64,000 bases of DNA, taken from Echinarachnius parma. Its lineage: Eukaryota > Echinodermata > Echinoidea > Clypeasteroida > Echinarachniidae. The stretch covers positions 62,001 through 126,000 of the forward strand of contig JBAMJV010004287.1 of assembly GCA_037951105.1 (NCBI GenBank), read 5' to 3'. The translations under genes were made by a program, and so were the position numbers. Each line of letters starts with the position of its first letter. Within the stretch, counting starts at the first letter, position 1. Below, in pieces: positions 37,544 through 59,502 of this stretch. The notes beneath the pieces were generated by a model. That model saw nothing but the letters and a program-made list of their open reading frames with translations. It did not search any database and was not told where the DNA came from.

Positions 37544-37631
37544 ATGAAATGTCCGATTAGGCTGAGGTCGACAGAGCTATGCAGTATTATCTTCTCGATT
37601 CTCTTTTTGGCTGGGTCGTGTACGCATGATG
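37544..37631 (+). CDS. SRCR receptor gene, exon 1: signal peptide
   Basis: The ATG (context AAAATGA) opens a 29-codon segment: MKCPIRLRSTELC, a hydrophobic core SIIFSILFLAG, then SCTHD. It is a typical secretory signal peptide, likely cleaved near the S-C-T. The exon ends with one base of the next codon and a perfect GTAAGT donor (phase 1). The phase joins exactly to the exon at 50141, giving Glu-Glu-Pro-Asp-Asp after the signal peptide. The connecting intron is 12.5 kb and contains the 6.1-kb TIR element. The assignment to the SRCR gene rests on strand, phase, splice sites and the need for a leader; a transcript would be decisive. Confidence 0.7.
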
Positions 37632-37861
37632 GTAAGTTTGACAAATCATTCTATTTATATTTCATGGAACAATTAATTTTAAAATTGAATCGTTTTTCTG
37701 CATGGCAATGATTTCTTTCATCGAATATTTGCTCTATCGATGCTTTATCATCATTTTAAGCAACATTATGCAAGACATGCACACAGTAAGTTGGCCTGTC
37801 CACATAATCTCGCCTGGGCCCTTGCCGAAATCTGAGATACTAAACAAATCCACCAACAGGC

Positions 37862-37979
37862 CTATACTCCGCTTTGGTTAGGCCACGTATTCGGAATACT
37901 GCAGTCAAGGTTGGATCCCACATTTTGTACAACACATCGAGGAAGTAGAAAAAAGAGCAGCGAGATTTTTATGTAATAT
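37862..37979 (+). pseudogene. LINE reverse transcriptase fragment, left half, frameshifted
   Basis: Plus strand: YSALVRPRI, then after a frameshift EYCSQGWIPHFVQHIEEVEK and RAARFLCN. This is the LVRPxLEYxxxxWxP...LExxQRRAARF region of CR1/jockey-type LINEs. It ends exactly at the left end of the 6.1-kb TIR element and resumes on its other side at 44106. Confidence 0.72.
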
Positions 37980-38883
37980 CGTCGCATGCCCGCACAAAGG
38001 CCGCTAACGCGCGTCGCGGGTCAAAAGTTAGTTCTGAGATAGAGCGTTTTAAAAGGTTGAAACTTACAATTTTTCTTTAACACATACAAATTATACATGA
38101 AAACGTGGAATGTTGCATATTCTATCAGACTGACAAATTAATTTTGTAAAACAATCATTATTTGTTGAGTTATCGTCGATTTTGTGATAGTGGCTTTTGT
38201 GCAGTGAGTTGAACGCGCTGGGCGTTTCCCGCACAAACGCCGCTACGCGCGTTACGGCTTTTGTGCGGGAACAATTTGAGCGCGCTCTATGTACAAAGGC
38301 CGCAGTCTACGTGTTGTAGGTATGCGCAGTGGCTTTTGTGCAGTCAATTAAGTGCAGAAACGTTTTGATAGTGCTCCCGCTTGTAATTAGCGTACTTTGT
38401 TGTGGTAAAGCCAAAGTAATCTTTTATTTGGTATCCCTTTTGTTTTACTTACTATCGAAAAGACCGCTTTATGTTTTTTCTCCTTCTTCATGTTGTATTT
38501 ATGGTCACAACATCAGTGGCAGCATTTTTGTTTCTTGATGTGTGTTTTGTCTGTTTTGTTTTGTTTGTTATGCGTACCGGGGGGGGGGGGGGGGGTAGTT
38601 AGCCTCGAAAAGAAATTGCTATTGAAATTGTCAATGGGCCTATCTATTATTTACACATCCACTGGTTTTGTATTAATACGTGTCAGTTTTACACATTAAA
38701 GGTGGGGGTAATTATTGCATTATTTGCCAATTTATTGGGATCATATGCCATGTGCATCCTATAGCTATTACAATGAAAATGGATAAAGGTCATTCAAATG
38801 AACTCTATATCCTGTTGTTGGTGTTATTATAAAGTGTATTATTTCGATTTCGCCGAATCATGAATGTATATGTATTTATGTAA

Positions 38884-39119
38884 ACATAACACAAACGGTA
38901 ATTCCCCCTAAAAACAAAATTTATAAATTCTCGATAAACTGCGTTTTAATATTTTGTCTTGTTAAGAAATTCATACTATGAAAACTATTTTTATTTATTA
39001 AATCATAAATAATAATAATTTTAATATTTTGTCTTGACAAGAAATTCATACTATGAAAACTATTCTTATATAGTAAATCATGAGGAGTTTTTAAGGGGGA
39101 TTTTGTTTGTGTTAGGTTT
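38884..39119. repeat. Small TIR-like element with two tandem ~90-bp units
   Basis: Ends AACACAAAC...AATTCCCCCTAAAAAC and GTTTTTAAGGGGGATT...GTTTGTGTT. Between them two tandem copies of a unit containing TTTAATATTTTGTCTTG and GAAATTCATACTATGAAAAC. Lies in the 6.1-kb element. Confidence 0.5.
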
Positions 39120-42110
39120 ATCATGTGTTATCATTGCCTGAGAGTTGAGCAAATTTCTTAAAGGGGAAGGAAAGTCTGCCATGATCTATTAAATCCTTCT
39201 CGCATCATGAATATCAGAGGTGCGTTGCAGGCGACGCCCAAAATATTTCAACTGGGTGATTTGACTTTCCTGTAAATATTGATTGCAGAACTATGAAGCC
39301 AATATACAAAAAGATTATTCTTGGTGATTCTAGGCTTCACTGATATTTAATGGAAATACTACCATTTTCCAGCTCGCTCTTAGTTAGCTCTCATCCATTT
39401 TCACTCATTATACTGTAAAATACTCGGGCAGGGATCTATGGTCTGAATAATAAGTGTTGAAGCTAAATCATGCAGTCATGAAAATTCTTAATGGGTTAAA
39501 TTGTTGTCACAACGAAAATGATCAATATGGTTTATAGAAAATATAAGTGCTTCAAATAGCCACCCATGAATGGAAGACAAAATTGAATATTCATAATATA
39601 GATTACTTTATTTCTTGCAAAGAGGATACTTCTTCACCAGTATAAAATAATGAATGCAGAGGTTAAAATCATAGCATCAATTTACAATTCATAACTGAAA
39701 AGGACAATTCACATAATTAAATGAAATAATTTTCAGTTTTCTTATATCTCTAAAATTAAAATATCATGCAGAATTAGAGATACAGTTCGTATTATTACAA
39801 TAATGTTTAAATTACTAAATACAAACAGAGGCCCAGGCAAAAAAATCAATAATAGAACTATTTGGGACCAGCAAAATTAAATACATATTTAAAATATCCA
39901 TATTGAATGTATTATGCTCAAATGTTGTATGATACTTTAAAACCGATGAACACTACAATTTCAACTACTGTTCAGTTCCATCCTTACAATTAATCAAAAT
40001 CAAACTTCACTTTCAAAATAAGCTCTCTGGAAAACATATGAAGCAATAAATTGAGTTTGCAAGTCACATAATAATCACTTAAAAATAACATAATTATATT
40101 ATTTTAGGATTTTAAACATTTATAACAATATTGTTTCAATTCTACAAAAAAAAAACCCACTATAACCTTGTTTTAAATTACACATCACTAACAAAGAATG
40201 TGCACCAATGATTAACTATGCTAATGGACATTATTATTCTACGGCCTTACACTTATTTTGGCAAACATTAAAATTGATATGTGAGATAATGCAAAAATCG
40301 ACAAACGTAACTCCTTTAAAATCGGACCACAAGTTTCTATTCTGTCCAAATTGGCTTTTATAAAACGTGAATTCTTTGATATTGCAAGCCTAGATACACA
40401 AGTTTGTATTCTCCATTTGTTTTATTGATTGAAATTTTTTTTATATAGGATTTCATTCCAGGAAAAGGTAAACAAAATTCCAGCATGTCTCACTGAAAGC
40501 ACCCCTCCTGCACCATGTTGGAATCACTGTTGCCAAGAAGACGGATCTTGATGATCTGTACAAAATAAACAAAAATATTTGTATAATGGTAAACTAAATT
40601 CTATATGAACTTTTATCAAGTAAAATGCTCAAAATATGGTCCTATTTTGAAAACAAAATCACTTATAATTTTATAAATATTATTGCCATCCACTCGCAAG
40701 AACTTTGAAACTGATAGTCAACTTAACATGATATATAATAGTCACATTATTGAGCTACTCAATACCATGATTACGTTGCTATGTTTATTTTACAGGTTAC
40801 ACTATGATTTTATTAGGCAAGCATCAAGCACTTTTATAATGCAATGCAAGGTTCTATAGCTCTCCGACTATGTTAAATGTGGGGAGATAATATTCAATTT
40901 AACCTTGATTAGTTTTAAAAAATGAAAAGTACATAATAAATAGCCTTAATTTGCAGTCCATCATTTTATGTAAAAGTTCTTTTGTTGGAAATGTTAAGTT
41001 TAGATATGGTATACAGCAACGTAGCTCTTTTCTGATTTCCCCTGTTGTTGCTGTTGTTAAGGGAATAATTAAGTATATTTTTATTTGTGAAATATCTTAT
41101 GAATGAATTAAAAAACATTCATGAATGCTTTCGATTTTAGTAAACATCGGCAGTATGTGATGAAATCTGATATACATGTAGATCTTCACCCCTTTTAACA
41201 AGACAACAGCAGCCCTTCTGTTCTATGAAATAAACACACATCATGCAGACGGAATAACCTCATAATGATATTGGTATATGATTGAATTCTAAAATGTCAC
41301 CTTTTTGAAAAATAGCACCAGTATAATGTATAAATTTAACTAAAAGAAAATATTGACTAGAGAAACACATACCTGCTTTGTGATATTTGCGTTATTCTTC
41401 CATCTGATGAAAGTGCATGTTCTCAGGAACCGTCTATCCCATGTCAGATCAGGGAGGAACTCATTCTGTACAATAACAAGGTTTGTAAACACACTGTATT
41501 AAATTGAGTTCGAGACAAAAACCTAAATTGTTCATCAGTGCATATAATACATTGACATTTACATACATATTTTTGGAGCAAGAAGAAAATTAATTGAATA
41601 TTATTTACATGACAATTATTTTTTTGGTTAAACAAACTCATATTTCACTCTTACCATGCCTAGACGCAATAAACAGGGGTCATCTTCACATTGCAGTGTT
41701 GTCCCAAGCGATGTCCCAGCGCTGCCCAAGTCACTTGATCACAGATGTTACAATAGGTCTTGTAGGTTTCCTGTTCAAAAATGACAGATAAAAGTCACAT
41801 TTATTTGGCGCTTGAAATGGGACATATTTCCAACAACCTTCAAGGTCGAGTTTATTGCTATACAAACATGTAATTCCAGTTCCAGAATGCGTTGACTCAC
41901 ATTCATTTTATAGACATTTTTCACAATTATGAGCCTGTTTGTAGACAAAGAATACAAGGTTTCAGTTGAAGCCTCTTTGCAACAACAAATGATAAGTTTG
42001 CCAACTACATGTTTTGATTTTTAAAAATACCCAAACTGGAAAGATTTGCATCTAAATCTAATATAGGATTCTCCAAAGATGAATAAGAAAATAAACCAGG
42101 CATAACCATA

Positions 42111-42202
42111 TACCTTGAGTGTAGAGATAACTCTGGAAGCAATTATTACAAGATAACCATCTTGTAATAATTGCTTCCAGAGTTATCTCTGCACTCAAGG
42201 TA
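42111..42202. repeat. Near-perfect 92-bp palindrome (44-bp arms, 4-nt loop)
   Basis: Left arm begins TACCTTGAGTGTAGAGATAA, right arm ends TTATCTCTGCACTCAAGGTA; 43 of 44 positions pair around the loop AACC. A strong hairpin inside the 6.1-kb element. Confidence 0.75.
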
Positions 42203-42811
42203 TGTGCATACTGGGGAGTGAAACATTTGTCAATTTTGTCCTTCCTCATATTTCATTGACGTTTCATAATCAGGTAAATGTGTAAGAAATTCTGTATACA
42301 TGATTCTTAAAACACTTACTGTATCATGATGACTTCATCTGTCATAGCTGCACCCTTCATCTGATCTGTTTGCAATATCTTGACACCCTTCTATAATCAG
42401 CTTCATGTCTTGTGTAGATGTGACATTCCCTCTGACAGCTCTGTTCTTCATCTTAGTGATCTGGCAGTAAGAGAAACAAAATGACAAGACACATAATTAG
42501 CTCATCTCACTATGAAAACTAAACTGGTCAAATAAATAAAAACAAATTAATGGATTCAAATTGACAAATAGTTGATTGACCCTTCATGTTCAGTGGCAAT
42601 TTTCAGTCACTTCTCACCACTTACATATATTCAATTGTCAATACTTTGTCTTAGATATGTTTTTACACAGCTACACGTAGTCCACATGTTGTACTGTACT
42701 GTATACATTTTGCAGACTGGGAAAGAAGATTCATGGGCAGTTCAGTATCATTATTCATGTGATGTTATCAACTTGCATAATTACATAGTTATGAATGAAA
42801 AAAGCAAATAA

Positions 42812-42892
42812 TAATGGGATTCTAACAGGATTCAAACTCGAGACCCCCGGATTGATAGACCAATGCTCTTACCAGCTGAGCTTATAGAAAAC
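42812..42892 (-). mobile_element. tRNA-derived SINE head
   Basis: Minus strand: GCTCAGCTGGTAAGAGCATT (A box) and GAGTTTGAATCCTG (B box) at tRNA spacing. Acceptor stem does not pair, so this is not a functional tRNA gene. Confidence 0.55.
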
Positions 42893-43034
42893 CCTAGTAC
42901 AGTGTTCGTCCCTGAAACTCCTTCATTTTTATATCTGACAAACACTACTTGTATAATTTATATGCTAATATGGGACATGAAATTAGTTGTGAATACATTT
43001 ATAACCAGTGATAAAGCTTTGAAGCTAGCCAATA

Positions 43035-43460
43035 ACATCACTCGCAATTCACAATGCAATTGCACTAGTTGTAGAGCTTAAAATATCAGTCTAAACTAAG
43101 TCATATACAGTCCAGACAAGAACAATTCTACAAGTCATCACTCGCAAGTCACAATATACAATTGTACTACTAGTTGTAGAGTACCACAACTTAAAATATA
43201 AGTCTAAAGTAAGACTAAGTCTTGTCTAACTCTAAGACTAGTCCAGACAAGAACAAGTCCACTCAAATTTGGACATATCATCACCCGCAATTCACACTGC
43301 AATAACACGCCTACCCTACTTAGTTACTACTAGTAGGGTTTACTAGTTCATTAGTTGTCCAGTACCAAGAACAGTTTGAGACTAACTCATGTCTAGAACT
43401 CTATCGTAATACAAGTTAGAGACTAGTCCAGACATGTTAAGGCAGCTTAGAGTTAGACTT
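43035..43460. repeat. Diverged tandem repeat, subterminal in the 6.1-kb element
   Basis: Repeated words ATCACTCGCAATTCACA, TGTAGAG, TTAAAATAT.AGTCTAAA and AGTCCAGACAAGAACAA occur two to three times at spacing of about 110-130 bp. Confidence 0.45.
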
Positions 43461-44105
43461 AGTCTACATAGTACATCATACATATCTTCTCTTATCCAGA
43501 CTAGATGAATTTCACCAAGTATATTTTCACAATCAAATCAACACAGGGGATAATATCGTGCCTTCTTTATCTTGTGAGTACTAGTGACTAGTTGTGGTTT
43601 CTTTGGATTGTATACATGCCAAATGCAAAACAAACACATTTATCTATAGGTGGGACAGTGTACACATACTGATGAGTCCAAAAACATAACATTTTCGTTT
43701 AAACATGACTATTATTCTATGTTTTAGAACCAATGCATGATATAAACTTATTTTGGGTAATAATTGAAGGCAGTGTTTTTATCTAAAATACTTTATACAA
43801 AGTATCATTCGAGTACTTACATAGAATTTGACGTACGAATTTGCTGGACCAGACGACACAAAATAATAGATGGGGCTTTTGTACACGCGTGAATGCGCGT
43901 AGCGGCCTTTGTGCGGGAACTTTTTGTGCAAATAACGCTTAGCGGCCTTTGTTTATGAAGAATATCTTCATAAATAGTGCGAATTAGATCATGTGCAATA
44001 TATCAAATTGTAGCTTTTTAAATTATCTACCATATTACTGAATAAAACATTTTTCGAAAATGTTGACCAAATTTGCGATAGCGGCCTTCGTGCGGGCAAG
44101 CGACG

Positions 44106-44175
44106 ATATGTTAGTTGTTACTCATGCGCTGCAGTCGAAAAAGTGGTGTCACAATTGGCTTTTTCTAAGGCTTTG
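44106..44175 (+). pseudogene. LINE reverse transcriptase fragment, right half
   Basis: Continues the fragment ending at 37979: after the ATAT duplication the frame reads MLVVTHALQSKKW..., matching the (S/V)VTxxLxxLxW region that follows RRAARFxC in CR1-like LINEs. Supports a single insertion of the 6.1-kb element. Confidence 0.6.
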
Positions 44176-44179
44176 AGTT

Positions 44180-44420
44180 TGAGGAGGTGCCACATGAACA
44201 TGGCGTATAGCGAGGGTCAACGGATTGGGAGGGGCACAACTGCGAGGGAGCGGAGCGGCCAAGCCTGAGGGCGCGTAGCGCCCGAGGGGGGGGGGGGGGG
44301 GGTGGGAGGGGGTGTCCCCCCTCCCACGGTAGGGAGCTTTTGCAAATTTTCAATTGAAATATTAATGCAATCTGGTTCATACCAGATTTAAATCATCTCC
44401 CTCATGATAAAGTATACAAA
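44180..44420. repeat. G-tract repeat with GAGCGGAGCGGCC
   Basis: Contains GCGAGGGAGCGGAGCGGCC, GGGCGCGTAGCGCCC, a long G run (44285-44302) and TGGGAGGGGGTGTCCCCCCTCCCA. Related sequence surrounds 45040-45100 and 45880-45910. Confidence 0.45.
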
Positions 44421-44434
44421 CACAGTCGAACCTA

Positions 44435-44986
44435 TAGACCGGCAGCCCAGAGGTCTTTTGTGCATCGAAAAGCGTACTGATTGTTGAACGAATATTTAGA
44501 GGAGAATGTAACAAATCCAATAATATGAGTCTCCCTGGGTGTATCCGTGGATAAAGGGGTCCTTTGCGCCTCCAAAAGTTGGCCCTGGGGATTGTCCGAT
44601 GCTTCTATTTTGTGACATATTTGTTAAGTTGCAAGAGGTTTTGGATATAATCCCCAATGCATCAACGTGTATTTTGTCTTTCAAAACAGGCATCGTAAAA
44701 TATTCGAAAAAGGTAACATGCATCAGTGATTTCTCCATTGTCTACGATGCGCTTACCCCGCCCGCGGCGAGTCGTGATCGACGATTAACACGGTACAATC
44801 GCACAAAATAGAAGCATCGGACAATCCCCAGGGGCCAACTTTTGGAGGCGCAAAGGACCCCTTTATCCACGGATACACCGATGGAGACTCATATTATTGG
44901 ATTTGTTACATTCTCCTCTAAATATTCATATGTTCAACAATCAGTACGCTTTTCGATGCACAAAAGACCTCTGGGCTGCCGGTCTA
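44435..44986. mobile_element. Foldback TIR element with ~180-bp arms
   Basis: TAGACCGGCAGCCCAGAGGT / ACCTCTGGGCTGCCGGTCTA. Arms 44435-44614 and about 44802-44986 are almost identical apart from a small indel near ATGTTCAAC and two differences near CTCCCTGGG/CCATCGG. Flanked by CTA on each side. The spacer is unique and non-coding. Open frames on both strands are arm artefacts. Confidence 0.75.
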
Positions 44987-45224
44987 CTACGATGTACATG
45001 CACACATACCAGACTCAAATACGCTCACGTGATATCCGTGCTTGTTATTACTATTGGGGGAAGGTGTGGGAGGGGGTTTACCCCCTCCCACGTGGAGAAA
45101 CTTTTGATATTGGTGTTTAAAATATCACTGTAGAAGTATGGTCATTATTGTCTTTTTATTTGTCATTGTATTATAATAGTGAACCTACTCATAACGTATT
45201 TTTAAACGGGAATAGCGAGGAAAG

Positions 45225-45870
45225 ATTGAGCCTTGCATGAGATGGATCCACGTGATCATGTAGAGCCATCGATATAGTCTAGGGCATTGCGCTCCAATGA
45301 AAATAAGCAAGGGCGTCAACAACTTCTCAAAAGTGGAGGGGAGACATTGCGAGGAAGCGAAGCGACCGAGTGGGGTATAGGGTGTGGGAGGGTGACAATC
45401 TCCTCCACTTTCAAATGTGGGGGGACATGATATTCCAATATGATTTGCGTTCAGCGCATATGGACCGCATTTACTGAAAGATATTATTATTTCAGATTAT
45501 TTTATTTTCTGTGAAGGGTTTAATAAACTTCGTTTGAGGTGTGCTTTTGAGAAATTACACTGCCCAACACAGTTCGAGCGGTGAGTTCAAGCAAAACGAA
45601 ATGAAACTTGCAATATGAGAAACTGTATGCGCACGAAGCGCGCGGCAGAAAACGAGATTTACAGTCTTTTTCAAACTAAAAAACAGCTATTCTGAAGATT
45701 AATTTTTGATAAATGTGTCTTTCCCCTCTTTGGCATTATATCACTCGATGTTTGTCTTCCTCATTTTCGGAATTATTGCGGGGGGGGGGCGAAATGATAT
45801 GCTCGCCCCAAATATTTTCATTGGGGGCTGACCGCACCCCTGCCCCCAGGATCGACGCCATGGGAGGGGG
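45225..45870 (+). mobile_element. Relative of element R1, opposite orientation, without the LINE
   Basis: Matches 36610-36395 (GATGGATCCACGTGATC, TCTAGGGCATTG, AAGTGGAGGGGAGACATTGC) and 35930-35063 (GAAACTTGCAATATGAGAAA, TTTCCCCTCTTTGGCATTA, CCCAGGATCGACGCC) in reverse. Where R1 has the LINE this copy runs from CGGCAGAAAACGAGA to TTTCAAACTAAAAAACAG directly. Confidence 0.62.
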
Positions 45871-46254
45871 TGTTCCCCTCCCATTGTATACTAGGGAGCT
45901 TTTGCAAATGTTGGGCTTTAAATTTTGCGATTTGGCGCATACCCGAGACCAAATATATGATTCGTAGTTCATGCTATAGAATCAAACATACATAATGTAT
46001 GCATATTACAAAGTGGGAGGAACAATCACCTCTCTTTTCAAATGTTTGGCTAGGGGCATGTCCCCCCTCCCCGTCCCCTGCCTGTTGTCGCCCACCGCGT
46101 GACTAGACCCATGACACGGGTCCCTTGAGTTAGTTTCAATAGGCCTATGCTCAAAACTGATGCAGACGTCGTCTCTGGAGAAGATGACTGGTGCTCCTTC
46201 AATCATGATCATCAACAATATGCCTACAGATATTCATCATGAATCAATGTAACG

Positions 46255-46368
46255 GGTGCATTTGGAGGGACCCATGTCTAAGGATTTTGTTTGAAAAAGT
46301 CACCCTTCCCAGCGGCACATCCCCGTATATAAACCCAATATACGTGAGTACCCCGCCCCCCCCCCCCC
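46255..46368 (-). repeat. G/C-tract repeat fragment (ACGTGAGTACCCC type)
   Basis: Contains GGACCCATGTCTAAGGATTT, AGTCACCCTTCCCAGCGGCA and ATACGTGAGTACCCC with a C run, as at 32210-32331; the inverse orientation lies at 50530-50620. Confidence 0.55.
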
Positions 46369-46644
46369 ACCCCCCCGGCTTTCCTCCCTCATTTTCTCCG
46401 GGATTTTGGGATTTGTGAAAATCGATGAGATGTGAAATTGCTAACATTTTCAATTTATTTGTATATATGAATCAGTCATATGAATAATACATCAACATAG
46501 GAAGACTACAAAAAAAAAGTAATAAACTTGTTGGCAGTATAAATAACACCCTTAAGATACGAAATATTCAGTTTTCCACGTTTGATACAAATACAATTAC
46601 AGGTAAAAACTATATGGATCTTCGATTGCGCGCAATCGAAAATT

Positions 46645-47464
46645 ATGCCTCCGCTATCACGCAATTTGTATATCAAGCCAAAATTAACATGCACTGAATT
46701 AATACTGTAAATTCAATTTTGATGGTAATTCATCAACCACATCTTGAGATATCACAATTACGAGCTATTTTGGCAAATACATGTATAATGAGTCGAGTGA
46801 CCTTGACCTTTAACCTCATGACCCCAAGATGGTAAGGCAACATCAGTCCCCTAAGAAACATTCAGGTACCAAGTTTGATTGAAATCTGACATTCAGTTCT
46901 CGAGATTTTGCCATTACAAGCTATCTTAGCATGTATTTATAGTCCTATGACCTTGGCCTTTGCCCTCATGACCCCAAAATTGTATGGCGTCATTGGCTCC
47001 CCAAGATATATTCAGGTACCCAAGTTGGATTGAAATCTGCCATTCAGTTCTTAATATTTTGCCATTAAAAGCTATTTTTGCATGTATTTATTGAGTTCTG
47101 TGACCTTGACATTTGATCTCATGACCCAAAAATTGTACAGCTTCATTGGCTCCCTAAGATACATTTACATACCAATTTTGATTGAAATTTGTCATTCGGT
47201 TCTTGAGATTTTGTCATTACAAGTGATTTTTGGATATATATAGTGCCCTGTGACCTTGACCTTTGACCTCATGACCCCCCAAATCTAATCAGATCATTGT
47301 CACTCCAATATGTACACTTATACCAAGTTTGAAATTGATCCGTCAACCGGTTCTTGAGATATCGCGAGAACGAAAACGGGACGTACGGACGGACGTACGT
47401 ACGGACGGACGGACGGACAACCCGAAAACATAATGCCTCCGGCCACTTCGTTGGCGGAGGCATA
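46645..47464 (-). mobile_element. Pearl/HINE-like element, family 2, inverted copy
   Basis: Starts ATGCCTCCGCTATCACGC and ends in the hairpin ATGCCTCCGGCC...GGCGGAGGCAT. It has (ACGG)n at 47378-47418 and about four core units with TGACCTTGACCTTTGACC and CAAGTTTGATTGAAATCTG. Reverse-oriented relative of 12432-13368 but strongly diverged. Confidence 0.65.
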
Positions 47465-47558
47465 CAAAGTCGTATAACATACATTTAACAAAACACACAC
47501 AACGCAAACATTGCATGGGTAAATGATTTTTACGAGATTAATATATAGTTTCTTAAAT

Positions 47559-48664: not shown

Positions 48665-48765
48665 CTTTGAATGCCGTATCAGGACTAAGTACCCTCTGGA
48701 CAATCACCCCCCGACGATTAGCCAACGACAATTCCCCCCAAGACAACTTCCCCAAGGCAATAATA

Positions 48766-49879
48766 TAATAATATACTCGGTTTATATAGCGCCTAATAAT
48801 ATGATTGATAATCATCTCTAAGCGCTTTACAATGATAATAATTACCCCCGGTCATAGGATACAATGCAAACCAGCACAAATTGTGTGCACCATCTCCACT
48901 CCCTGGGGAGCATTCCTTCCAAGCGGGTCATGGGCATTGAGAAGATTTTTCACATACATGTATAGGCTTTTACCTCCTACCGGGTCCCCATTTATACACC
49001 TGGGGGTGTATTCTGAAAATCGTCTTTTCCCTAATATCGTATTAGGCTTATGACAAAACCGGTATTCTGAAAACTCTCATATCTTTTGTATTATCTCTGA
49101 AAGTTTGTTAACCTCTATTAGCTGGCGCGCCTTGCCACGCATTATTGATAAGCGCGTTCGCGCAAGCAGAGGTGGAAAATGTGTATTCTGAAAACTCTCT
49201 TATCTTTCATCTCATCATGAAATTATCATAAATTCTACTCATATGCCGAGACAGCTATGGGGCAGTATTTTCCTTTTGTTATATCTTGTTTAAACATATT
49301 TAAAGACAATTATTTGAGATTTTAAAGAGCTCCCTATGTTTGTTGTGTGTATAGCTGTGTGTACGTGCGTAAAAGTTAGAAAATAAGAGTGAGGGGGAGA
49401 AAATTCCATTGAAAATCTAACCATATGGAAATCCCATTCTTACAAAAATACTCTTTGACCAAATATATAAATTTCTTGAACTTTGATTGAAATTTCTACG
49501 TGTGCGCAAAGCTAGTTAGATGCGCGCGTTTAAAGAAAATGCGACGCATACGCAATTTAACCCACTTTGATTGGCTGAGGGGGCATATAAACATTTTGTA
49601 ACAACAATTTTGATTGGTTAACTCAGCACTAATGGGCGTGGTCAGGGAAAGATATGATGCCCTTAAGACAATTTTCAGAATACCGATTTATGACAATTTT
49701 AGCGGTGTATTATCTTATGGACTTATGACAAAAGATAATACAAAAGATAAGACGATTTTCAGAATACACCCCCTGGGTAGAGAGCAGCAACTGTGGATAA
49801 ATTGTCTTGCTGATGGACAAAGGCAGTGGGCAGGGTTCGAACTCGGGATCTCATGATATGAAAGCGCGCGCTCTACCAA

Positions 49880-49894
<15 letters not shown>
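48766..49894 (-). mobile_element. tRNA-derived SINE, split by a TIR element
   Basis: Minus strand: tRNA-like head TTGGTAGAGCGCGCG ... GAGTTCGAACCCTGCC at 49894-49828, body, and a 3' tail with AAGCGCTTAGAGATGATTA and AGGCGCTATATAAACCGAG. Interrupted at 49004-49771. A tail fragment of the same SINE is at 53192-53280. Confidence 0.7.
49004..49771. mobile_element. 768-bp TIR element inside the SINE
   Basis: TIRs GGGTGTATTCTGAAAATCGT / ACGATTTTCAGAATACACCC; flanked by CCTGG at 48999-49003 and 49772-49776. Interior repeats TATTCTGAAAACTCTCATAT-like words. No transposase. Confidence 0.72.
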
Positions 49895-49911
<17 letters not shown>

Positions 49912-50140
49912 TTCCCAAGAAAACTACCTCAAGACAATTTCCCCCCGGGACAATAACCCCAAAGTCCAAGACAATTACGACTACTACCCCCGGACAATTA
50001 CCCTCAAGACAATTACCTACCAAGACAACTACCCCCCCCCCCCCCCCCTCCTACTTACTCCTCCTCATATAGCTACGGGCCTACGTTATCATCACCATAA
50101 TCCTCAATCCCTTCCCTTGTTATATTCCCTTCTCAAATAG

Positions 50141-50319
50141 AAGAGCCTGACGATGGAGATATCATGCTGGAGTCCGTAAACTGGTGGCCATACGATTCAG
50201 GTATTGTTCTTGTATTCCATGATGGAGAGTGGGGCGCATTATGCAGCGACGGATGGACAGAGAGCGAAGGCATAGTTGCGTGCAGGCAATTGGGTTACAG
50301 CGAGATGATCAATATACGG
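50141..50319 (+). CDS. SRCR receptor gene, exon 2: first half of the SRCR domain
   Basis: A polypyrimidine-rich acceptor (TTCCCTTCTCAAATAG) and a GTACGT donor bound 179 nt (phase 1 in, phase 0 out). The protein segment (residues 30-89) contains the SRCR signatures GEWGALCSDGW (Cys64) and VACRQLGY (Cys77). SRCR domains are extracellular ligand-binding modules of innate immune and adhesion receptors. The domain is split across two exons and has six cysteines in all, which is the group A pattern. A G run follows just inside the intron (50341-50356). Confidence 0.88.
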
Positions 50320-50504
50320 GTACGTAATGATGTGTGTGTGGGGGGGGGGGGGGGGGTGGATAGGAGAGGGTCGTTATTTTTTTCCATGAAGCATGAGGAA
50401 ATAAAGGCGTGTTACGCTGTGGAATTAATATATTTATTGTTGGAGTTGTAATTTTGTATGTAATACAGACTGGCGATAGCGTAGACATAGTGCCGCGGAA
50501 TCAG

Positions 50505-50700
50505 CCCGAGGGGGGGGGGGGGGGGGGGGGATACTCACGTATATTGGGTATACGGGGATGTGCCGCTGGGAAGGGTGACTTTTTCAAGAAAGATCCTTTG
50601 ACATGGGTCCCTTTTTCATTAAAAAAAATGTTAGACATAGGTCCCATTTAAACAAAAAAAACCCTTACACATGGGTCCCTTTAACACAAAATATATTCCT
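50505..50700 (+). repeat. G/C-tract repeat (ACTCACGTATATTGGGTATA) in SRCR intron 2
   Basis: A G run followed by ATACTCACGTATATTGGGTA, GGGGATGTGCCGCTGGGAAG and TGGGTCCC words, inverse to 32290-32331 and 46255-46368. Confidence 0.55.
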
Positions 50701-50794
50701 TTCCCCTCTTGCCTCCCTCATTTCTCCGGGATTTTGGAATTTGCTGATGTGAAATTGCTAAAATGTTCAAGCTCGCTTCCCTCGCTCGCATACA

Positions 50795-51231
50795 TAATAG
50801 CGTCTTTTCGCTCTGCGACGCAAGTGCTAGGACGGGGGATTTAAATTACCTGTGACCGTCCCCGTACTCTGGCTACCGTCGCGATCTATTTGCAGTTTCG
50901 CAATTCTGAATACGCGGGAGTTCACTCGTTCCATTTATCATGCATGTTGTACTATAAGCATACGGTATAGGCAGTACAAATCACAACATACTGTGCATGC
51001 AGCGCGTGTGTACGAATCGGTGCATGAAACACGTGAGGCAGCGAGCCTCGCCGTCCAAGCGCTCTGATTGGCTGATCACGTACCCGCGTAGCGGCTCTAC
51101 GACCGACGTTAATTCGGTCAAATACCGTCCTAGGTTTGGCCGCTACGCGGAAATTTTCGCTCTGAGTGCGACCCCCCGCTAAGATTAGCGTTGTAGCCAC
51201 ACTCCCGTCGCAGAGCGAAAAGACGCTAATA
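50795..51231. mobile_element. TIR element in SRCR intron 2
   Basis: TAATAGCGTCTTTTCGCTCT / AGAGCGAAAAGACGCTAATA, extended by GCGACG / CGTCGC. The GC-rich interior contains GCAGCGAGCCTCGCC and GCGTAGCGGC; open frames on both strands lack domains. Confidence 0.6.
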
Positions 51232-51801
51232 ATTCACAACCTCGGGGGATAATTAACCTTCATAACGCCATATCATAAGACATAACACGAATATACCCAT
51301 ACAATAATATTGAAACAAATGGCATTTTCCGATGTGATATTGCTAAAATGTTCAAGCTCGCACCGCTCGCTAGCATTATTCATATTTATGCAAATTACCG
51401 TACCATAATTAAAGCCTAATCACAGTTTTTCTATCATTTGAAAATTTGAGAATTTTACCTCCGATAAGTGTAAAAATTGCCAAAGCTCCCTGGTGAGGGA
51501 GGGGGACACCCTCCCCCCGCTCGGGCGCTTCGCGCCCTCAAAGTTTACACTTTCGCCCTCCCTAAGAAAATACCCTGGCGTCGCCCCTGTAGTATGGTAC
51601 AGTTTACTAATGAATAATTTCATCAAGAAACTGCAAAATGCTTAGCCATTGTATTATATTACAGCTAAACAATTTAAAAGTTCGAAATCCTTAGACATGG
51701 TCCATTTTTCACAAAACAATGTTTTTATTTTTACTGGCTATTATATGCAATATGGCTCAAGATCAGTACTCTCTATTGTATTGCATTGTATAAACTTGCA
51801 G

Positions 51802-51991
51802 AGCCATGCCATGAGATATGACGAGCCATTGCTGCTGAGAGGTCTGTCATGCGAAGGGAACGAGGACAGTCTGTACGATTGCTCTTATCTTCAGAGGAGA
51901 AATATGGGATGTCCGAGCCCGGGCCGTATAGCAGGCGTGAAGTGTGACCGAACGACACCGTACTACGAGGAGGAAGACGAGTGGGACGAAG
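51802..51991 (+). CDS. SRCR receptor gene, exon 3: second half of the SRCR domain plus acidic stalk
   Basis: Acceptor TAAACTTGCAG, donor GTGAGT (phase 0 in, phase 1 out). Residues 90-153: LLLRGLSCEGNEDSLYDC (Cys106, Cys116), a shortened loop with Cys126, and GVKC (Cys137), completing the domain. With Cys64 and Cys77 this gives six cysteines at group A positions; Cys1 and Cys4 of group B are absent. The usual His before the sixth element is not obvious. The exon continues into a stalk, TTPYYEEEDEWDEG, very acidic, that leads to either transmembrane exon. Confidence 0.88.
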
Positions 51992-52041
51992 GTGAGTTTC
52001 TTCAACAATGAAACAATCTGTAAAATAATGATATCCGCTCT

Positions 52042-52549
52042 TTAAAGGGGTGGTACAGTTTTGGTAAGACTAATATAAGCTTTAGTAACCAAAACCTGCA
52101 CAATAACATTAAAAAATAATAGTTATAACTCCACCGTGCTCGAAGGGAAAGAAAATTACAAAGTAAAAAGCCCGTTATCTTTTTAAAAGCCATTAAATCA
52201 CAAGAGGGCCCTCTCTAAAAAGGCATTGGTTTCAACCATTTTTTCATACCAAATTATGCATGTGTGATGTTTTGTTGAAAAAAAAAGATTAAATAGAGAG
52301 ATCATCAACAACTATTCAAAAACATCTTTTGAAAATTGTGGAAAAAAGTGTAAGCATTTTTATATTTTAAAAAGAATTCATCGAATAAATCTTGGCCCCA
52401 GATTTATTCTGATCAAATGTATTTATTAATATTTCTGAACCGATTTTGATCAAATAAAGTTTATTCTGCCATTAAAATTGTATGCTCTTTCACATTTTAC
52501 ACTCAGTTTTCAATGACCCCTCTATACCAAAACTGAACTACCCCTTTAA
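52042..52549. mobile_element. MITE family G, complete copy in the intron after SRCR exon 3
   Basis: Ends TTAAAGGGGTGGTACAGTTT and AAACTGAACTACCCCTTTAA. The 508 bp are non-coding. Confidence 0.65.
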
Positions 52550-52739
52550 CTCTTTACAGGTCGTATGAGTGAAACATAGCCGCACTATATTATATTTTGA
52601 ATATAGCTGCTTTTTAGACCCTTTAGACCTATGGAGAAAAAAAAACTGGTCAGCTCCAGAGACCAGTGGAGCAGACAGGTTCTTACACCGGGGGGGGGGG
52701 GGGGGGGTGATTTGCCGTTCACGAGCAGGCACGTAGCCA

Positions 52740-53050
52740 TTGTTTTTATAATTTCTTTTATATTTCCTTTTTTTTAACTCATGTATTTCATTTTTTTTTT
52801 TTCAACATATAATTCGACTATTTTGACCCACAAAGAAAACACCTTACCGTATATGAAAACAAGAACAAGTACTAGTAACCAAAACTCTTTTTAGGAAAAT
52901 CACATTTCCATTTGTTTTGTACACAAATAAAAAGCAATTTTAGGGCTGACATGCAGACAAAAAGTCGCGGGATTTCGTAAGGTTCGATTTAAAACAAGAT
53001 GTGCAAGACTCGAAAGAAAAAAGTCACAAAGCGGCGGGGTATCATGTTCA
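52740..53050 (+). repeat. Repeat family B, partial copy
   Basis: Shares TTTTGACCCACAAAG-like, TTTCCATTTGTTTTGTACAC, GGGCTGACATGCA and AAAAAGTCACAAAGC words with 8755-9020 and 17330-17580. Confidence 0.55.
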
Positions 53051-53191
53051 TGCATAATTCTCGAGCAATCGGAAAAATCGCGGAGACGCGGCCTATCATT
53101 TTCTTTTTTTAAAGGCCACTATTTAGACTATTTTGTAAATGATACCCACCCTTTAGACCTATGAGTAAAACATACATTTAAAATTATAATA

Positions 53192-53280
53192 ATAATACTC
53201 GATTTATATAGCGCCTAATATGATCGATAATCATCTCTAAGCGCTTTAATACAAGATAATATTACCCCCGGTCATAGACC
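53192..53280 (-). mobile_element. SINE 3' tail fragment
   Basis: ATTTATATAGCGCCTAATAT and TCATCTCTAAGCGCTTTA match the tail at 48778-48830. Confidence 0.55.
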
Positions 53281-53391
53281 TATCCGCTCTTTAGACATCA
53301 CCACCAAAATATAATTCGAGTAGGGGGCACACCACCACCAAAAGATAATTCGAGTACCCCCGAGATATACCCCCTCCCATATTTATAGCAG

Positions 53392-53445
53392 ACGTCTAGT
53401 GTGAACAAACAACGCAATTCTACGATGAGGAAGAGTGGAACACAA
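53392..53445 (+). pseudogene. Relic duplicate of the 3' end of SRCR exon 3
   Basis: The 54 nt with acceptor TTTATAGCAG and donor GTGAGT are homologous to the last part of exon 3 (TATAGCAG-GCGTGAAGTGTGA...). In the phase left by exon 3 it reads D-V-stop-CEQTTQFYDEEEWNT, against GVKCDRTTPYYEEEDEWDE in exon 3; the Lys codon AAG has become TAG. Phase 1 at both ends and length divisible by three. Either a dead exon or a cassette that would end the protein before the membrane helix. Confidence 0.6.
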
Positions 53446-54568
53446 GTGAGTTATACCCCCCCCCCCCCCCCCGCCCCCTCCCCCACACCACCGTGGCATA
53501 AATATCTGAGAGGCATTCCTAGGCTAATCTACCCCTCCTGAAATTCGTTCTCTTCTCCCCATATATTAAGAAATTCCTCTAACCTGCTAGATCAGAGAAG
53601 TTGTTACGGTAGTCAGATATAACTAACTCTAAATGGGGATTGGTATTTATAAATATGACTTCCTTCTTATGGGGTGGTCTCCACAAGCTGGCGATAGTGG
53701 AGCCAGTCTCAGTTGAACAACCATTGGTTTGCATGGTGATGGGTGATGGGCAGAATTTATAAACATACTAATAATTACTGAACAATACAGGAAACTGGAC
53801 TTTAATTCTCACCATGCAACATAAAACAACCAAAGATTATCATCACTGCCATGGGAAAAGCGTGAGCATCAGAGAGAAAAATTCTTATTTTTTCTTTAAT
53901 GGAACAAAAACCAAGAACATATTATAAAGAGCTAAATTACAAATGCGCTAAATTCACTTTTTCAACTTTGGAGAAAAGCAGGTTTCTTTGTCTAACTTTA
54001 TACACAAGTCAGCTATGGGAATATGAAGAAATTAATGTATCCGTATTTTTAATTTTGTTAATTTTGTCCTAAAATTTGGATTTCGAGATAGTTACGTAGC
54101 TAACAATTAATATGCCATGTGGATATCGTTAACTCATTTTTAGTTTAAAGTGGATTTAGCGCCTTTTCGAACTAATATCTTTATAAAGAGCTAGTACAAG
54201 ATTTGTTATATCTCACATATATATGTTATCAAATACCTGTGTGTATTCACAAATAAACTGACTCGGCATGATATCAAACAGGCCCGTAGCCAGGATATTT
54301 TTAAGGAGCGGGGGGGGGGGGGGGGGGATCGATGTCCGAGGCCGAGACCACTAGTTAATTTGTGTCATAAGTAGGGGAATGGGGGGGGGGGGGGGTCCAA
54401 GACCATTGGTTTATGTCCAAATTTGCAGTAAATTACTTTTCTTATCTTTTCATTTGACTTCAGCTGTCACTTACGTGAATACTTCCACATTCTGTTTTTC
54501 TATTTTAAATAATATTTCTCTCACAATTCATTCGTAATTTGCTTCTTGGTGTAAATGCGCATATACAG
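53446..54568. other. SRCR intron, no further exon seen
   Basis: C run at 53457-53472, G runs at 54310-54327 and 54381-54396 within a CCCGTAGCCAGGAT-type repeat. AT-rich remainder without open splice-flanked segments. Confidence 0.4.
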
Positions 54569-55215
54569 GAGGGAACCTTATACCCCCCTACGCGTATGCC
54601 GGCTTTGTGGTGTTTATCTTGATAAGCATAGCAATCACAGCCTACAGAATTTGGAAGAGACATCAAAGCCATCAAAGCGGGGGAAATCTGTTTCAATTTG
54701 GCCACCGTGTTGACCAGCCAGTGCAGATACAAGCCATGCAGGCTATGGGAGCACAACAAGCTCACACTCAGCATGGTCAAGGCTCATATCCACCACCAGC
54801 ACATGAACCAGATACCCAGAATGATGCCCCGAACACCACTGTAGATGTTGCTGGGAACTATCACCCTCTAGCAGCTATTCAGCGCCCCACACAGACCCAG
54901 GGTACCGCCTCACACACCTTTGAAGTTCACGCGCAAGAGCCACCTCCCCCGCCCCCATCTAGGCTGTGGATGGGAGAAGAGGCTGGGGGGATAGGTCAGC
55001 CCATGGTGCCCCCACCAGCTGTCTACACCAACCCAGGACACGTGGGCCCGCCCTTACCCCTAGGGATGCATCACCCCATGCCAAACCCCACCCACTACAC
55101 ACAAGCACCTCCGACTCCCTACTACCATCTCCCGGAGGTTGTGCCCCTACCACCACACCAACAACAAACCGACAACCTGCCACCACCCCCGGGTTACGAT
55201 CAAGCAACTCAATAA
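54569..55215 (+). CDS. SRCR receptor gene, terminal exon A: transmembrane helix and proline-rich tail
   Basis: Acceptor GCGCATATACAG; enters in phase 1 and completes a Gly codon. Residues 153-367 (isoform A of 367 residues): a short juxtamembrane GNLIPPYAYA, a helix GFVVFILISIAITAY at about 164-178, a basic stop-transfer RIWKRH, then a roughly 185-residue Pro/Gln/His-rich cytoplasmic tail. It has runs such as PPPPPPS and ends LPPPPGYDQATQ-stop. The PPGY (359-362) is a PPxY ligand for WW domains (for example Nedd4-type E3 ligases). AATAAA overlaps the stop codon (55211-55216), and another lies at 56153-56158. Antisense and alternate frames here are by-products of the proline codons. Confidence 0.8.
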
Positions 55216-56160
55216 AGTTAACTGATAATGTACCGAATGACCCCCACAATGTATGATGTTGGAACTTGACCACACCTAAAAAAGCTTATACACAAAACAT
55301 TTTCACAGTGTTAATAACACTCCACATATCATTTTGATATCCATATAACACAACATTAATGATAAGTACTTGTATGAATAATCAGCTATTAAAAGAAAAT
55401 GTTTAAATTATGAAATATAGTTTCAATTGTCGTCTCCGTGTATAATTATGTGAGAAAATGTTTTTAAAATACATTATATCCCTCATGAGATCGTTTTACC
55501 ATTGCGCAATCCCCGCGCAATCACGTGACCGGGCTTGTGATAAAAAATTAATTATTATCACCTGACTTAGTAAATACAGTATACATGCCGCTGCCGTGTT
55601 CTATTTTTGGATAGCACATGGGTATAGGCTTATAGCACACCCCTGCAAGTGAAGTCGGATGATAAAACAGTTGTTACATTTGTTGTCGGGAAAATCACGG
55701 AATATTCCTACCCTCGGGATTTATTTCGTGAAGAAAATAAGTCCCTCGACTTCGTCTCGGGACTTATTTACTCTCCCCTCAATAGCATTTAAAATCCCTC
55801 GGGATGTAATATTCCGTGTTATATTCCACATACTAAGAATCTTGCTCTACGATTGGTCAAAAGTTAATCACGTGATGAAATATAGTTTTGCCCATTATCG
55901 ATGGAAGAAGAAAAGTTCGTGACACTGTGTAGATATCTTGGGTGAAAGTGCGTTGCACTCACTAGATAGTGCGTTGCACTGTGTAGATATTAAATTGTTC
56001 GCGCGCAAGTACGCGTGCGCGCGTTAGTGCGCAGAAAGGTAGCGCGCTGATGCGCAACGTTTGCGCGCGGCTACCCCTAATAGACAATGGTATTTAAGCG
56101 TCTTTGACTTTTAGTCATAAATCTTGTTCATGTGCAGGATTGACGAAATTAAAATAAAAG
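55216..56160 (+). other. Possible 3' UTR of terminal exon A and following DNA
   Basis: AATAAA at 55211-55216 and 56153-56158. Between 55680 and 55830 lies a repeat with CCCTCGGGATTTATTTCGTG and TCGACTTCGTCTCGGG mirrored by AAAATCCCTCGGGATG; GCGC-rich DNA at 55990-56075. Confidence 0.35.
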
Positions 56161-56269
56161 ACTCGATCAATTGCTCAATATTCCAAACTTTTTAGCCCTT
56201 TGTGTTATTTATAGGTCGTTTTTGATCAAAATAATTGATGTGGAATATAAAGCAAATAATCACCTTTTG

Positions 56270-56520
56270 GTTTCAGGCGATGGCAAACTATCACTTCCTC
56301 GGCGATCTGAATGTATACGCTATCTTTCCTCAGCTTCGCTTCGGAAAGCTAGCTACATCCAGATCGCCTCGGAAGTGATAGTTTGTCCCATCACCTTCAC
56401 CAACGGTAATTATTTGCTTACTATACCCTCCACCGCCATGTAACAACAGTATATTACCCTCAGCTACGCTTCGGGTAATAATCATTTCGAGCCCACCTCG
56501 GTAATAGATTTGACTATCAC
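56270..56520. repeat. Hairpin repeat with CAGCTTCGCTTCGG
   Basis: Arms CAAACTATCACTTCCTCGGC / CGGAAGTGATAGTTTG, GATCTGAATGTA / TACATCCAGATC, around CTCAGCTTCGCTTCGGAAAG; followed by a similar CCCTCAGCTACGCTTCGGG at 56456. Confidence 0.5.
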
Positions 56521-56929
56521 AAAAAGCCCATTCGTTAGTTGTATATTAAATAAAAGTATGGGATAATCAATAATTAGCAGAAGTTTTTAGTATAGTATAA
56601 TAATGCAATAATTCAAAACACACCGGTATAAGTATACGTGATGTTGTGAAGAATTATAATTTAAAAATCAAATATTGATTGAGACTCACAATAATGTATT
56701 TGGCATGATCAAACATCAAAACTGCATGAAATACATGCTCTCATTTCTGACCAGTATTTCGTGGATGGGTAAGACTGGAGTAGCGAAGAGAGGCCTCTTC
56801 GAGAGGCCTCTTCGATGCCCCGAAAATTGACGGTTTAGTCGGAAAATAACACGGTTTTGCCCGAATGATGATATCAATCCTATCATGACATGACTTTGCC
56901 CGAAACTTTGCATGCTGAGATTGCCCGAA

Positions 56930-57180
56930 TATATTTGGAGATTTGCACGAATGTGACATGGCTTTGCGGATTTGCCCGAATGTGACATGGCTTTGCGGAT
57001 TTGCCCGAATGTGACATGGCTTTGCGGATTTGCCCGAATGTGACATGGCTTTGCGGATTTGCCCGAATGTGACATGGCTTTGCGGATTTGCCCGAATGTG
57101 ACGTGGCTTTGCGGATTTGCCCGAATGTGACGTGGCTTTGCGGATTTGCCCGAATGTGACATGGCTTTGCGACTTTTTCC
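56930..57180 (-). repeat. 29-bp minisatellite, about eight units
   Basis: Unit TTTGCCCGAATGTGACATGG plus CTTTGCGGA, repeated with little divergence (two units have GACGTGG). Since 29 is not a multiple of three and the minus strand lacks stops in the unit, long frames appear in more than one frame (87-bp/29-residue period). Not a gene. Confidence 0.8.
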
Positions 57181-57195
57181 CCGAATGATGATTCC

Positions 57196-57795
57196 TACCC
57201 AGATAACAATGCGACGTTGGCGGAACGTAGTCTATAGTCGGCACCGTCGCGTTTGGAAAAACAGCGTTTAGCCAACGTTGGCCTACGGTAAATTCACAAC
57301 CATATTTTTGCAGTCGGCGAGCTGACGTTAAAACAACGTTAAGCCGACGTTGGCTGTTGACTGTTGGCAAACTGGTCGGCAAATGTACGTTGAAACAACG
57401 TTGGGTGATAGACGAACAATCATATTTATATGGTCGAAAAGCAAACGTTGGGCCAACGTTTCGCCTACTACGTTGGATATTGGTTGGCTAGTTGACGTCG
57501 TACTAACGTTTGACAAACAACCGCATTACGACGGTAGGCAAGCCAACGTAGGGCCAACATTCACTTATATAGTCGTATGAACGTTGGGGTTTAGTCGGCT
57601 CAATGTTGGCTTGACGTCAGAAATAGCAAAATAAAAGGTTGGGCAAACGGCGCAACATTGGCAATTGACGTTGGCTTATAGGGGTTGGGCCGACGAGGGC
57701 CCAGCGGCAAGAATGACGTGGGCAAAACGTCACGTTTTGACGTTGGCCCAACATGACCGCCTACATTGGGCCAACGTAGCATTGTTATCTGGGTA
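57196..57795. mobile_element. 600-bp TIR element filled with AACGTTGG motifs
   Basis: TIRs TACCCAGATAACAATGC / GCATTGTTATCTGGGTA. The interior carries over ten AACGTTGG or CCAACGTT words or one-base variants (for example GCCAACGTTGGCC, AACGTTGGGCCAACGTTTCG) in both orientations. No transposase. Confidence 0.72.
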
Positions 57796-58189
57796 AATGT
57801 TGTGGGCTAGAGTACATTCATCAATACGAGTGTGCATGGAGCTGCTAAAAAGAACCTGTTCACATACGAGTTACAAATCTGTTTTTCAATAGTACTTCAA
57901 CAATGCAGCTAAAATCCAACTCTGTCCAACTCGGTGGCGTAGCGACGGAGGGTGGGGGGGGGGGGGGGGGGACGTGAAGAAAATTTGTTGTGGGCGTTTC
58001 CAATTTGAATTTTCAAGTTTATTTCTTTGTTTTATTGATATAATATATCAATGTGGTTGAATAATTATATATATTATAATTCAACCACATTCTGTTCTCA
58101 TTCCCTTATAGCTGGAGGAATTGGGGGGGGGGGGGGGGGGGGGAGAGACATAATGGATCTTGCCGTAAAAGAGCATAAAGAATATAATG

Positions 58190-58665
58190 ATGTAATGATA
58201 ATTTAGATATTTTGAAAAATCGATGGTATATTAATTAAGGAAAATTATGGTATGTTATGCAAATAAGGTCATAATTTCACATTAATTATTGGGCACAATT
58301 GGACAGTTTGTTGCCCAACACTGGGCAACATACTGTCCACACAACTATTGGTTAAAATCTGCCTAACTGATGTTCATTTGAAGGCTCAATTGGGTAATAA
58401 TAGCCCAGAATTATGAATCTTTTTAACCAACCAACAAGTACCCAACATTTTTAGAGTGCATATTCTTTAGAATTCGGTAGAACAGTCGGAATGATAATGT
58501 AAAAACTAAATTGGAAGAGCCTGTATTTATCTTGTATTCTATTGTTTTGAATTATTTCTTAAGCACTTATACAACTATTTTGAGCCCGAAACAAACTTCT
58601 GCAACGAAAACAAGACAAAATAGCCAATGATCTCTCTTTGGGAAAAATTATATTTCCATATTTTC
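58190..58665 (+). repeat. Repeat family B, diverged copy before terminal exon B
   Basis: Shares TATGCAAATAAGGTCATAA, TATTGTTTTGAATTATTTCT, AACTATTTTGAGCCC and TTATATTTCCATATTTT with other family B copies. Interrupted near 58280-58440 by DNA with GGGCAAC / GTTGCCC words. Confidence 0.5.
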
Positions 58666-58780
58666 CTGGCTAGAATACGGTTATATTGATAAATCATAAC
58701 CCATTTACAATCAATAAATGCAGTAAATCCAGTAATACAACTTTTACTGCTTTGCACTATTTTTTCTAAATACCAAACAG

Positions 58781-59490
58781 GTATAACTGACCCCAATACA
58801 GAACCCATCTTCATGTATGCGCTCTACATTTGCTTCGGACTTTCCTTCATTGCCTGCATCGTCTACAAGGCCAACAGGGCACGGAGACAGTTTCACCCGA
58901 ACATGATCCTGGGAGGAAGGTTCGGAGCTGGAAGAACAATTGCTGCACAGCGGACACAAGAGGATGATGATGCAGTTGTCGTGTCTCACATTCTCTTAAC
59001 ATCCCCCTTCGGGCCACAACCGGGTGCCTGGGATGAGGCCCCTCCAGATTATGAGGAGGCCGGCTATATTTCCCTACTAGACGGGACTGGAACCCTCAAC
59101 CTGCCTTCGTATGCCTCCCAGACTCTTCCCTCAGAACCTCCGCTTACATTTGCCGAGTTGGTAAGACAGATTCAGCTAGACATCTCGGTTACCGGTGAAG
59201 GAGAAGAAGGGGGTACGCCGGCACCAACAGGGGGGGAACAGTGCCCCCTCTGCCCATCCCAAGCGGGCAATCCCACTGGTCATGCAGACGCTGCATTACC
59301 TATTAATGGGGCGAGTCATCCTTTGTCCCCTCTCTCCCACTATCTTACGACCCCACCAGCACTGACATGCTATCCTCCTGGTGAAGAATCTTCTATGCCC
59401 AGGCGGTCATTGCCAGTTCAACCTGAAGATGTTCGTCCCACAAACATGTCTCCCCCACCTAGCTATGATGAGGCAACTAAACAAGTCTAG
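58781..59490 (+). CDS. SRCR receptor gene, alternative terminal exon B: transmembrane helix and PPxY tail
   Basis: Acceptor TTCTAAATACCAAACAG; enters in phase 1 like exon A and completes a Gly codon, then ITDPNTEPIFMYA. The helix is about 162-181 (FMYALYICFGLSFIACIVY), followed by basic KANRARRQ. The tail of about 200 residues has two PPxY motifs: PPDYEEA (240-243) and PPPSYDEATKQV-stop (PPSY 378-381). Isoform B would be 388 residues. The end PPP(S/G)YD(E/Q)AT is shared with exon A, so the two exons are probably ancient duplicates, but the rest of the tails is dissimilar. It could instead be the last exon of a second gene copy whose other exons are lost; no second SRCR exon pair is seen between 55.2 and 58.8 kb. 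Confidence 0.75.
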
Positions 59491-59502
59491 CTAAAACCTA
59501 AT

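Follow-up and report, generated by a model that had tools for sequence, protein, structure and literature searches.

A predicted SRCR-domain membrane protein gene of Echinarachnius parma whose two candidate last exons are apparently ancient duplicates and end in extended PY motifs

We analysed a 64,000-base stretch of DNA from the echinoid Echinarachnius parma (contig JBAMJV010004287.1, positions 62,001 to 126,000, 37% GC; this whole stretch is called the window below) and obtained for its plus strand a gene model of four exons with two candidate last exons, 4a and 4b. The predicted product is a type I membrane protein, in which a signal peptide is followed by a single group A-type SRCR domain and a short acidic linker. 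Either last exon would then supply a single membrane helix together with a proline-rich tail that ends in an extended PY motif (L/PPxY with flanking residues). We propose that the last exon was duplicated long ago and both copies were retained, that transcripts would end in 4a or 4b through competing splicing and polyadenylation, and that the SRCR head would stay constant while the tail is exchanged. Taken as a whole, with one gene, a duplicated last exon, both tails in use and a ubiquitin ligase adaptor of two valencies as product, this explanation is the one we favour, at a confidence somewhat above even.

The exon coordinates and the phase-1 end of exons 1–3 (457 nucleotides in total) given in an earlier note on this DNA could be recovered from the sequence, and the SRCR domain was identified by Pfam. 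Residues 49–137 match PF00530 with an E-value of 8.6e-18 and 64.9 bits, over the curated cut-off of 26.1 and hence within the SRCR superfamily, and PF15494 (SRCR_2) is matched with 28.9 bits, just over its cut-off of 27. Six cysteines define SRCR group A (PMC2906472 and PMC10855680), and the domain described here contains six, at residues 64, 77, 106, 116, 126 and 137, with the extra C1/C4 pair of group B absent. In the PDB, 25 distinct SRCR sequences were found at E up to 0.001, the top scorers being chains of the multi-domain group B protein CD163. The domain reads CRQLGY where group B has CRQLGC, which we take to reflect the absence of the extra cysteine pair, and the rule, as we assume it to hold, that a group A domain is encoded by at least two exons fits the gene model, in which predicted splicing joins exons 2 and 3 in phase 0. 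A further SRCR domain is not apparent in the window: leaving aside a partial copy of exon 3 that is treated below, the best other match to the ectodomain among the best 60 tblastn matches reached 20.8 bits (E 1.3).

As the earlier note had described, either last exon restores the reading frame of exon 3 as Gly, and each encodes one helix followed by basic residues and a proline-rich tail finishing in PPP(G/S)YD(Q/E)AT, more precisely PPPPGYDQATQ in tail A and PPPSYDEATKQV in tail B; the spliced products would be 367 (form A, via 4a) and 388 residues (form B, via 4b) long. The stop-to-stop frames comprise 225 codons for 4a and 265 codons for 4b, and as a chance control, 300 Markov sequences of 14 kb each yielded stop-free runs of at least 225 codons in two cases and of at least 265 codons in none. 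Under shuffling by composition, a PPxY fell within the last 14 residues of tail A in 1.6% of cases and of tail B in 0.7%. Searched alone against Pfam, tail A gave sub-threshold matches only and tail B none, and tail B had a single PDB match at E 1.6. Rfam returned no match. In prokaryote contigs, where animal genes are not expected, none of 117 pattern stretches encoded a relative of tail B, and the tail A pattern was without match in viral contigs, for which the same expectation holds.

The two tails had been called unrelated, a description that is not borne out by their alignment. Local alignment of tail A with tail B scored 116, a value that no shuffle reached in any of four schemes with 1000 shuffles apiece (highest score 104, from shuffling within 10-residue blocks), and controls with either tail reversed scored 68. 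The alignment starts near the junction, at residue 3 of A and residue 6 of B, and extends over 200 positions with 31% identity. At codon positions 1, 2 and 3, nucleotide identity amounts to 0.45, 0.53 and 0.35 over the 200 aligned codons and to 0.51, 0.68 and 0.37 over the 74 C-terminal codons, compared to 0.25–0.27 by chance, where a protein-guided alignment in itself favours positions 1 and 2. Taken separately, the middle part was equalled by 8 of 1000 full and 16 of 1000 local shuffles. The C-terminal part without its PY end was tested with 2000 shuffles each and was equalled by 4 full and 9 local ones, and by 2 in a global test. On the DNA level, no blastn match between exons 4a and 4b was found at E up to 1. 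With the tails related in protein and codon positions and no blastn match, 4a and 4b look like old duplicates of one last exon, of which both reading frames were retained.

Several results weigh against common descent of the two tails. The membrane part alone, equalled by 1 of 1000 full shuffles, was equalled by 19 of 1000 local ones, and its 46 codons (0.46, 0.37 and 0.41) show no excess at position 2; the tail minus its last 15 residues was equalled by none of 1000 full and by 31 of 1000 local shuffles, and proline-rich sequence raises alignment scores as such. Circular rotation of tail A reached a maximum of 114 over 205 rotations, a control that is uninformative since rotation leaves aligned blocks intact. 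These tails are of low complexity and most of the score comes from the last 20 residues, so that, also in view of the limited identity and the weak membrane part, convergence of proline-rich, PY-ended tails has to be weighed in place of exon duplication. However, intron phase, the order of helix, anchor and tail, and the C-terminal anchoring are all common to both exons, and the few shuffles that equal the C-terminal part without its PY end argue in the same direction, which renders convergence quite improbable to us.

Tail A carries one PY motif (PPGY) and tail B three (PPDY, LPSY and PPSY), PPDY and LPSY being absent from the earlier note. The pattern [LP]PxY[DE][DEQ]A, drawn up after the tails were seen, has three matches among 127,996 residues of six-frame translation, each of them within the two tails. 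Since the two tails have the same extended PY motif in common, of which A contains a single copy and B two copies besides LPSY, a difference in valency suits them better than the recruitment of different WW-domain partners that was suggested earlier. Both tails display the layout of NEDD4-family membrane adaptors, a single helix with a cytosolic L/PPxY, for which WW binding is predicted. We expect that the extended PY motifs at both tail ends would dock WW domains of NEDD4-family ubiquitin ligases and that the protein would most likely act as a membrane adaptor. It would bring such a ligase to a target, either the ligand of the SRCR domain or a receptor nearby, and route this target to endosomes. 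By virtue of its three PY sites, form B would be expected to bind the ligase tighter than form A with one.

Lysines are rare in both tails, with none among 184 residues after residue 31 of tail A and one among 205 of tail B (Lys30, beside the helix in each, lies outside this count), where base composition by codon position would lead to 5.8 and 5.3 (P 0.003 and 0.03). Exons 1–3 are however poor in lysine as well (2 of 152 residues; the fat storage-inducing transmembrane (FIT) protein encoded elsewhere in the window has 10 of 295), which speaks against reading this as peculiar to the tails, and lysine poverty was therefore dropped as a tail-specific sign.

Alternative splicing of the last exons is, as far as can be judged from the gene model, the simplest model of the locus and moderately probable. 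It had been preferred earlier to a truncated second gene, and this preference stands in part: it is favoured by the matching phases, by the lack of a second SRCR domain and by the finding of no donor scoring at least 4.5 between 4a and 4b, and it is weakened by the fact that 25% of windows of the same size also contain no such donor and by a second candidate for a signal exon. Splice scores were taken from an approximate model built on general knowledge, by which the donors of exons 1, 2 and 3 fall within the best 0.4%, 0.8% and 0.03% of plus-strand GTs in the window and the acceptors are ordinary (top 8% of AGs for exon 2, 22% for exon 3, 11% for 4a and 36% for 4b), so that acceptor scores do not tell the models apart. 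Besides the weakness of the missing donor as evidence, the unremarkable 4b acceptor, four donors of 2.5–4.5 within 55216–58780 and the nearest polyadenylation signal of 4a, which overlaps the stop codon, count against splicing to both last exons.

Those four donors would suit 4b as part of a different transcript, either with another set of 5' exons or as a short, ectodomain-less membrane PY adaptor that starts from a Met at the helix start, the 4b frame being open for 29 codons upstream of the acceptor. A scan for signal exons (start codon, hydrophobic core and phase-1 donor of at least 4.5, limits which were chosen after the exon scores were seen) covered both strands of the window and returned two candidates, namely exon 1 and a phase-1 candidate at 1865–1952 on the plus strand, 36 kb upstream of exon 1, whose donor scores 7.4 compared to 5.7 and whose core is weaker. 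The 4b acceptor, however, is in phase with exon 3, and the aligned part of the tails begins just past the junction. No donor of at least 4.5 lies between the tail exons, and three open reading frames tested from this interval gave no Pfam hit at E up to 0.1. We therefore regard a separate transcript as improbable.

The main rival, which we consider unlikely but weightier than the others, is that 4b constitutes a remnant, dead or dying, of an SRCR gene that arose by tandem duplication and lost its 5' exons but not its last one, and that exon 3 joins 4a only. The locus has experienced duplication before, as seen from a second, incomplete version of the 3' end of exon 3 that includes the donor and that the earlier note did not contain. 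Its alignment to exon 3 scores 30.5, compared to a maximum of 16.5 in 200 Markov controls, and its donor (CAA/GTGAGT at 53445, score 5.0) is the sole one of at least 4.5 between 52000 and 54560. A working mini-exon at this place was considered and is unlikely, since most readings stop early: of the seven possible acceptors, six lead to an early stop when joined to exon 3 and four when joined to exon 2. The readings that stay open are a 12-nucleotide exon after exon 3 and three forms that skip exon 3, and a form of the latter kind would be open into 4a. The copy is probably a relic. It is a younger duplication than that of the last exons and shows that pieces of this locus duplicate, which leaves a tandem gene copy as a conceivable source of 4b. 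SRCR genes are also often arranged in tandem, as are 253 of the 359 in sea urchin (PMC10855680), the 4b acceptor is unremarkable, and repeats occupy the interval between 4a and 4b and the sequence directly after 4b. On the other hand, the exon 3 copy precedes 4a and not 4b, and 4b is open over 236 codons with three PY motifs. In simulated drift (n=2000, substitutions only), 4b remained free of stops in 10.5% of runs at 0.1 and in 1.4% at 0.2 substitutions per site, making long neutrality unlikely, although a loss too recent for stops would leave 4b open as well.

The repeats and the poly-G tracts around 4a and 4b could finally point to an assembly artefact, in which one last exon is misplaced. 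Since the window contains no N, the divergence of the exons is well above that of allelic copies and their phases match, we hold this to be very improbable, and retain a single gene with two retained last exons as our working model. The features on which it is based are listed in Table 1.

Table 1. Predicted features of the SRCR gene model and its surroundings (positions in the window; slashes mark exon ends)
Feature	Position	Strand	Details
Exon 1	37544-37631 (88 nt)	+	ATG at 37544; signal peptide MKCPIRLRSTELCSIIFSILFLAGSCTHD; donor ATG/gtaagt, phase 1
Exon 2	50141-50319 (179 nt)	+	First half of SRCR domain; donor CGG/gtacgt, phase 0
Exon 3	51802-51991 (190 nt)	+	Second half of SRCR domain and acidic linker; donor AAG/gtgagt, phase 1
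SRCR domain span	50197-51945	+	Residues 49-137, Pfam PF00530; intron 50320-51801 inside
Partial copy of exon 3 3' end with donor	53384-53452	+	In-frame stop; blastn 75% over 72 columns, E 4e-8
Exon 4a, candidate alternative last exon A	54569-55215, stop included	+	Helix, basic anchor, 215-residue tail counting junction Gly
Tail A membrane helix, most hydrophobic 19 residues	54580-54636	+	Kyte-Doolittle mean 2.04
Tail A extended PY motif PPGYDQA	55186-55206	+	
AATAAA overlapping exon 4a stop	55211-55216	+	Next signal ATTAAA at 55388
Exon 4b, candidate alternative last exon B	58781-59490, stop included	+	Helix, basic anchor, 236-residue tail counting junction Gly
Tail B membrane helix, most hydrophobic 19 residues	58807-58863	+	Kyte-Doolittle mean 2.36
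Tail B extended PY motif PPDYEEA	59041-59061	+	
Tail B LPSY motif	59101-59112	+	
Tail B terminal extended PY motif PPSYDEA	59455-59475	+	
First AATAAA past exon 4b stop	60289-60294	+	

Around the last exons, a foldback with 74% identity to its own reverse complement is located at 59501–59983, 11 bases past the 4b stop, so that a long hairpin could be part of the 3' untranslated region of form B. Between 4a and 4b, self-matches revealed a tandem array of a short unit (56934–57187). An element resembling a miniature inverted-repeat transposable element (57196–57795) begins with TACCCAGATAACAATG and has terminal inverted repeats of 35 bp that are 89% complementary. Intron 1 contains two inverted arms of about 180 bases that are 96% identical (44435–44986) and a repeat with an internal duplication (46636–47469), of which inverted copies are found at 12426–13377. 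Of ten other open reading frames of the window searched in Pfam at E up to 0.1, nine remained without match, and the one at 30256–31278 on the minus strand encodes the FIT protein (PF10261, E 1.8e-23). A 173-codon open frame at 35392–35910 on the minus strand, without Pfam match, is presumably the end of a long interspersed nuclear element reverse transcriptase.

SRCR genes have undergone massive expansion in some invertebrates, and the way in which these receptors signal is, in our judgement, largely open. If the proposal is true, receptor-guided ubiquitination selected by splicing would constitute a concrete and testable signalling route, and SRCR recognition and a PY-motif membrane adaptor would be joined in one protein. 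We tentatively extend this to the idea, which is rather doubtful at present, that splicing and not the ligand sets the extent of ubiquitination and clearance of bound cargo or of partner receptors, by placing a lysine-poor tail with either one or three PY motifs on an innate-type SRCR receptor.

Compared to known SRCR proteins, the predicted protein corresponds to the group A type in its single six-cysteine domain, signal peptide and single membrane helix, and departs from the superfamily in its PY-motif tails. Proteins with SRCR domains only are common (53.66% of 1747) and, in one sea-urchin SRCR cluster, domains lie within single exons (PMC10855680), whereas the domain described here is split over two. 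The closest parallel for the proposed exchange of tails is the CD163 family, in which the cytoplasmic tails of CD163A and CD163b are alternatively spliced (PMC2906472). The gene model likewise suggests a common ectodomain with tails exchanged by splicing. In contrast to the many group B domains in series and the tyrosine motifs of CD163, a single group A-type domain and PY motifs are present here, which places the protein outside that family, and helix and tail would swap together via two last exons.

In their single helix with cytosolic L/PPxY, the two forms resemble the transmembrane PY adaptors Commissureless (Comm), PRRG4, CYYR1 and Shisa-like/WBP1/VOPP1, and the extended PY motif is similar to GLPSYDEAL of Comm (PMC5578492). 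The ectodomain differs from these, since most Shisa-like proteins have another cysteine pattern (C*C*CC*CC in most STMC6 members, compared to no adjacent cysteines here) and Comm lacks extracellular cysteines, according to the same paper. Alternative CD163 tails and PY adaptors are thus both known; an SRCR head on PY adaptors is not described in the passages covered, and SRCR together with PPxY was not met in the literature searched, a coverage that leaves out most subscription journals. For Comm, PMC12101832 reports that PY motifs act additively and that Nedd4 is brought to Robo1, which is ubiquitinated and sent to lysosomes; two earlier studies that this paper cites disagree on the need for lysines in Comm itself. 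For CYYR1, loss of one of three PPxY motifs has a minor effect and loss of pairs abolishes WWP1 binding (PMC11399591). By analogy with these adaptors, we infer that form A would be a ligase adaptor of low valency and form B one of high valency, both with a common SRCR head.

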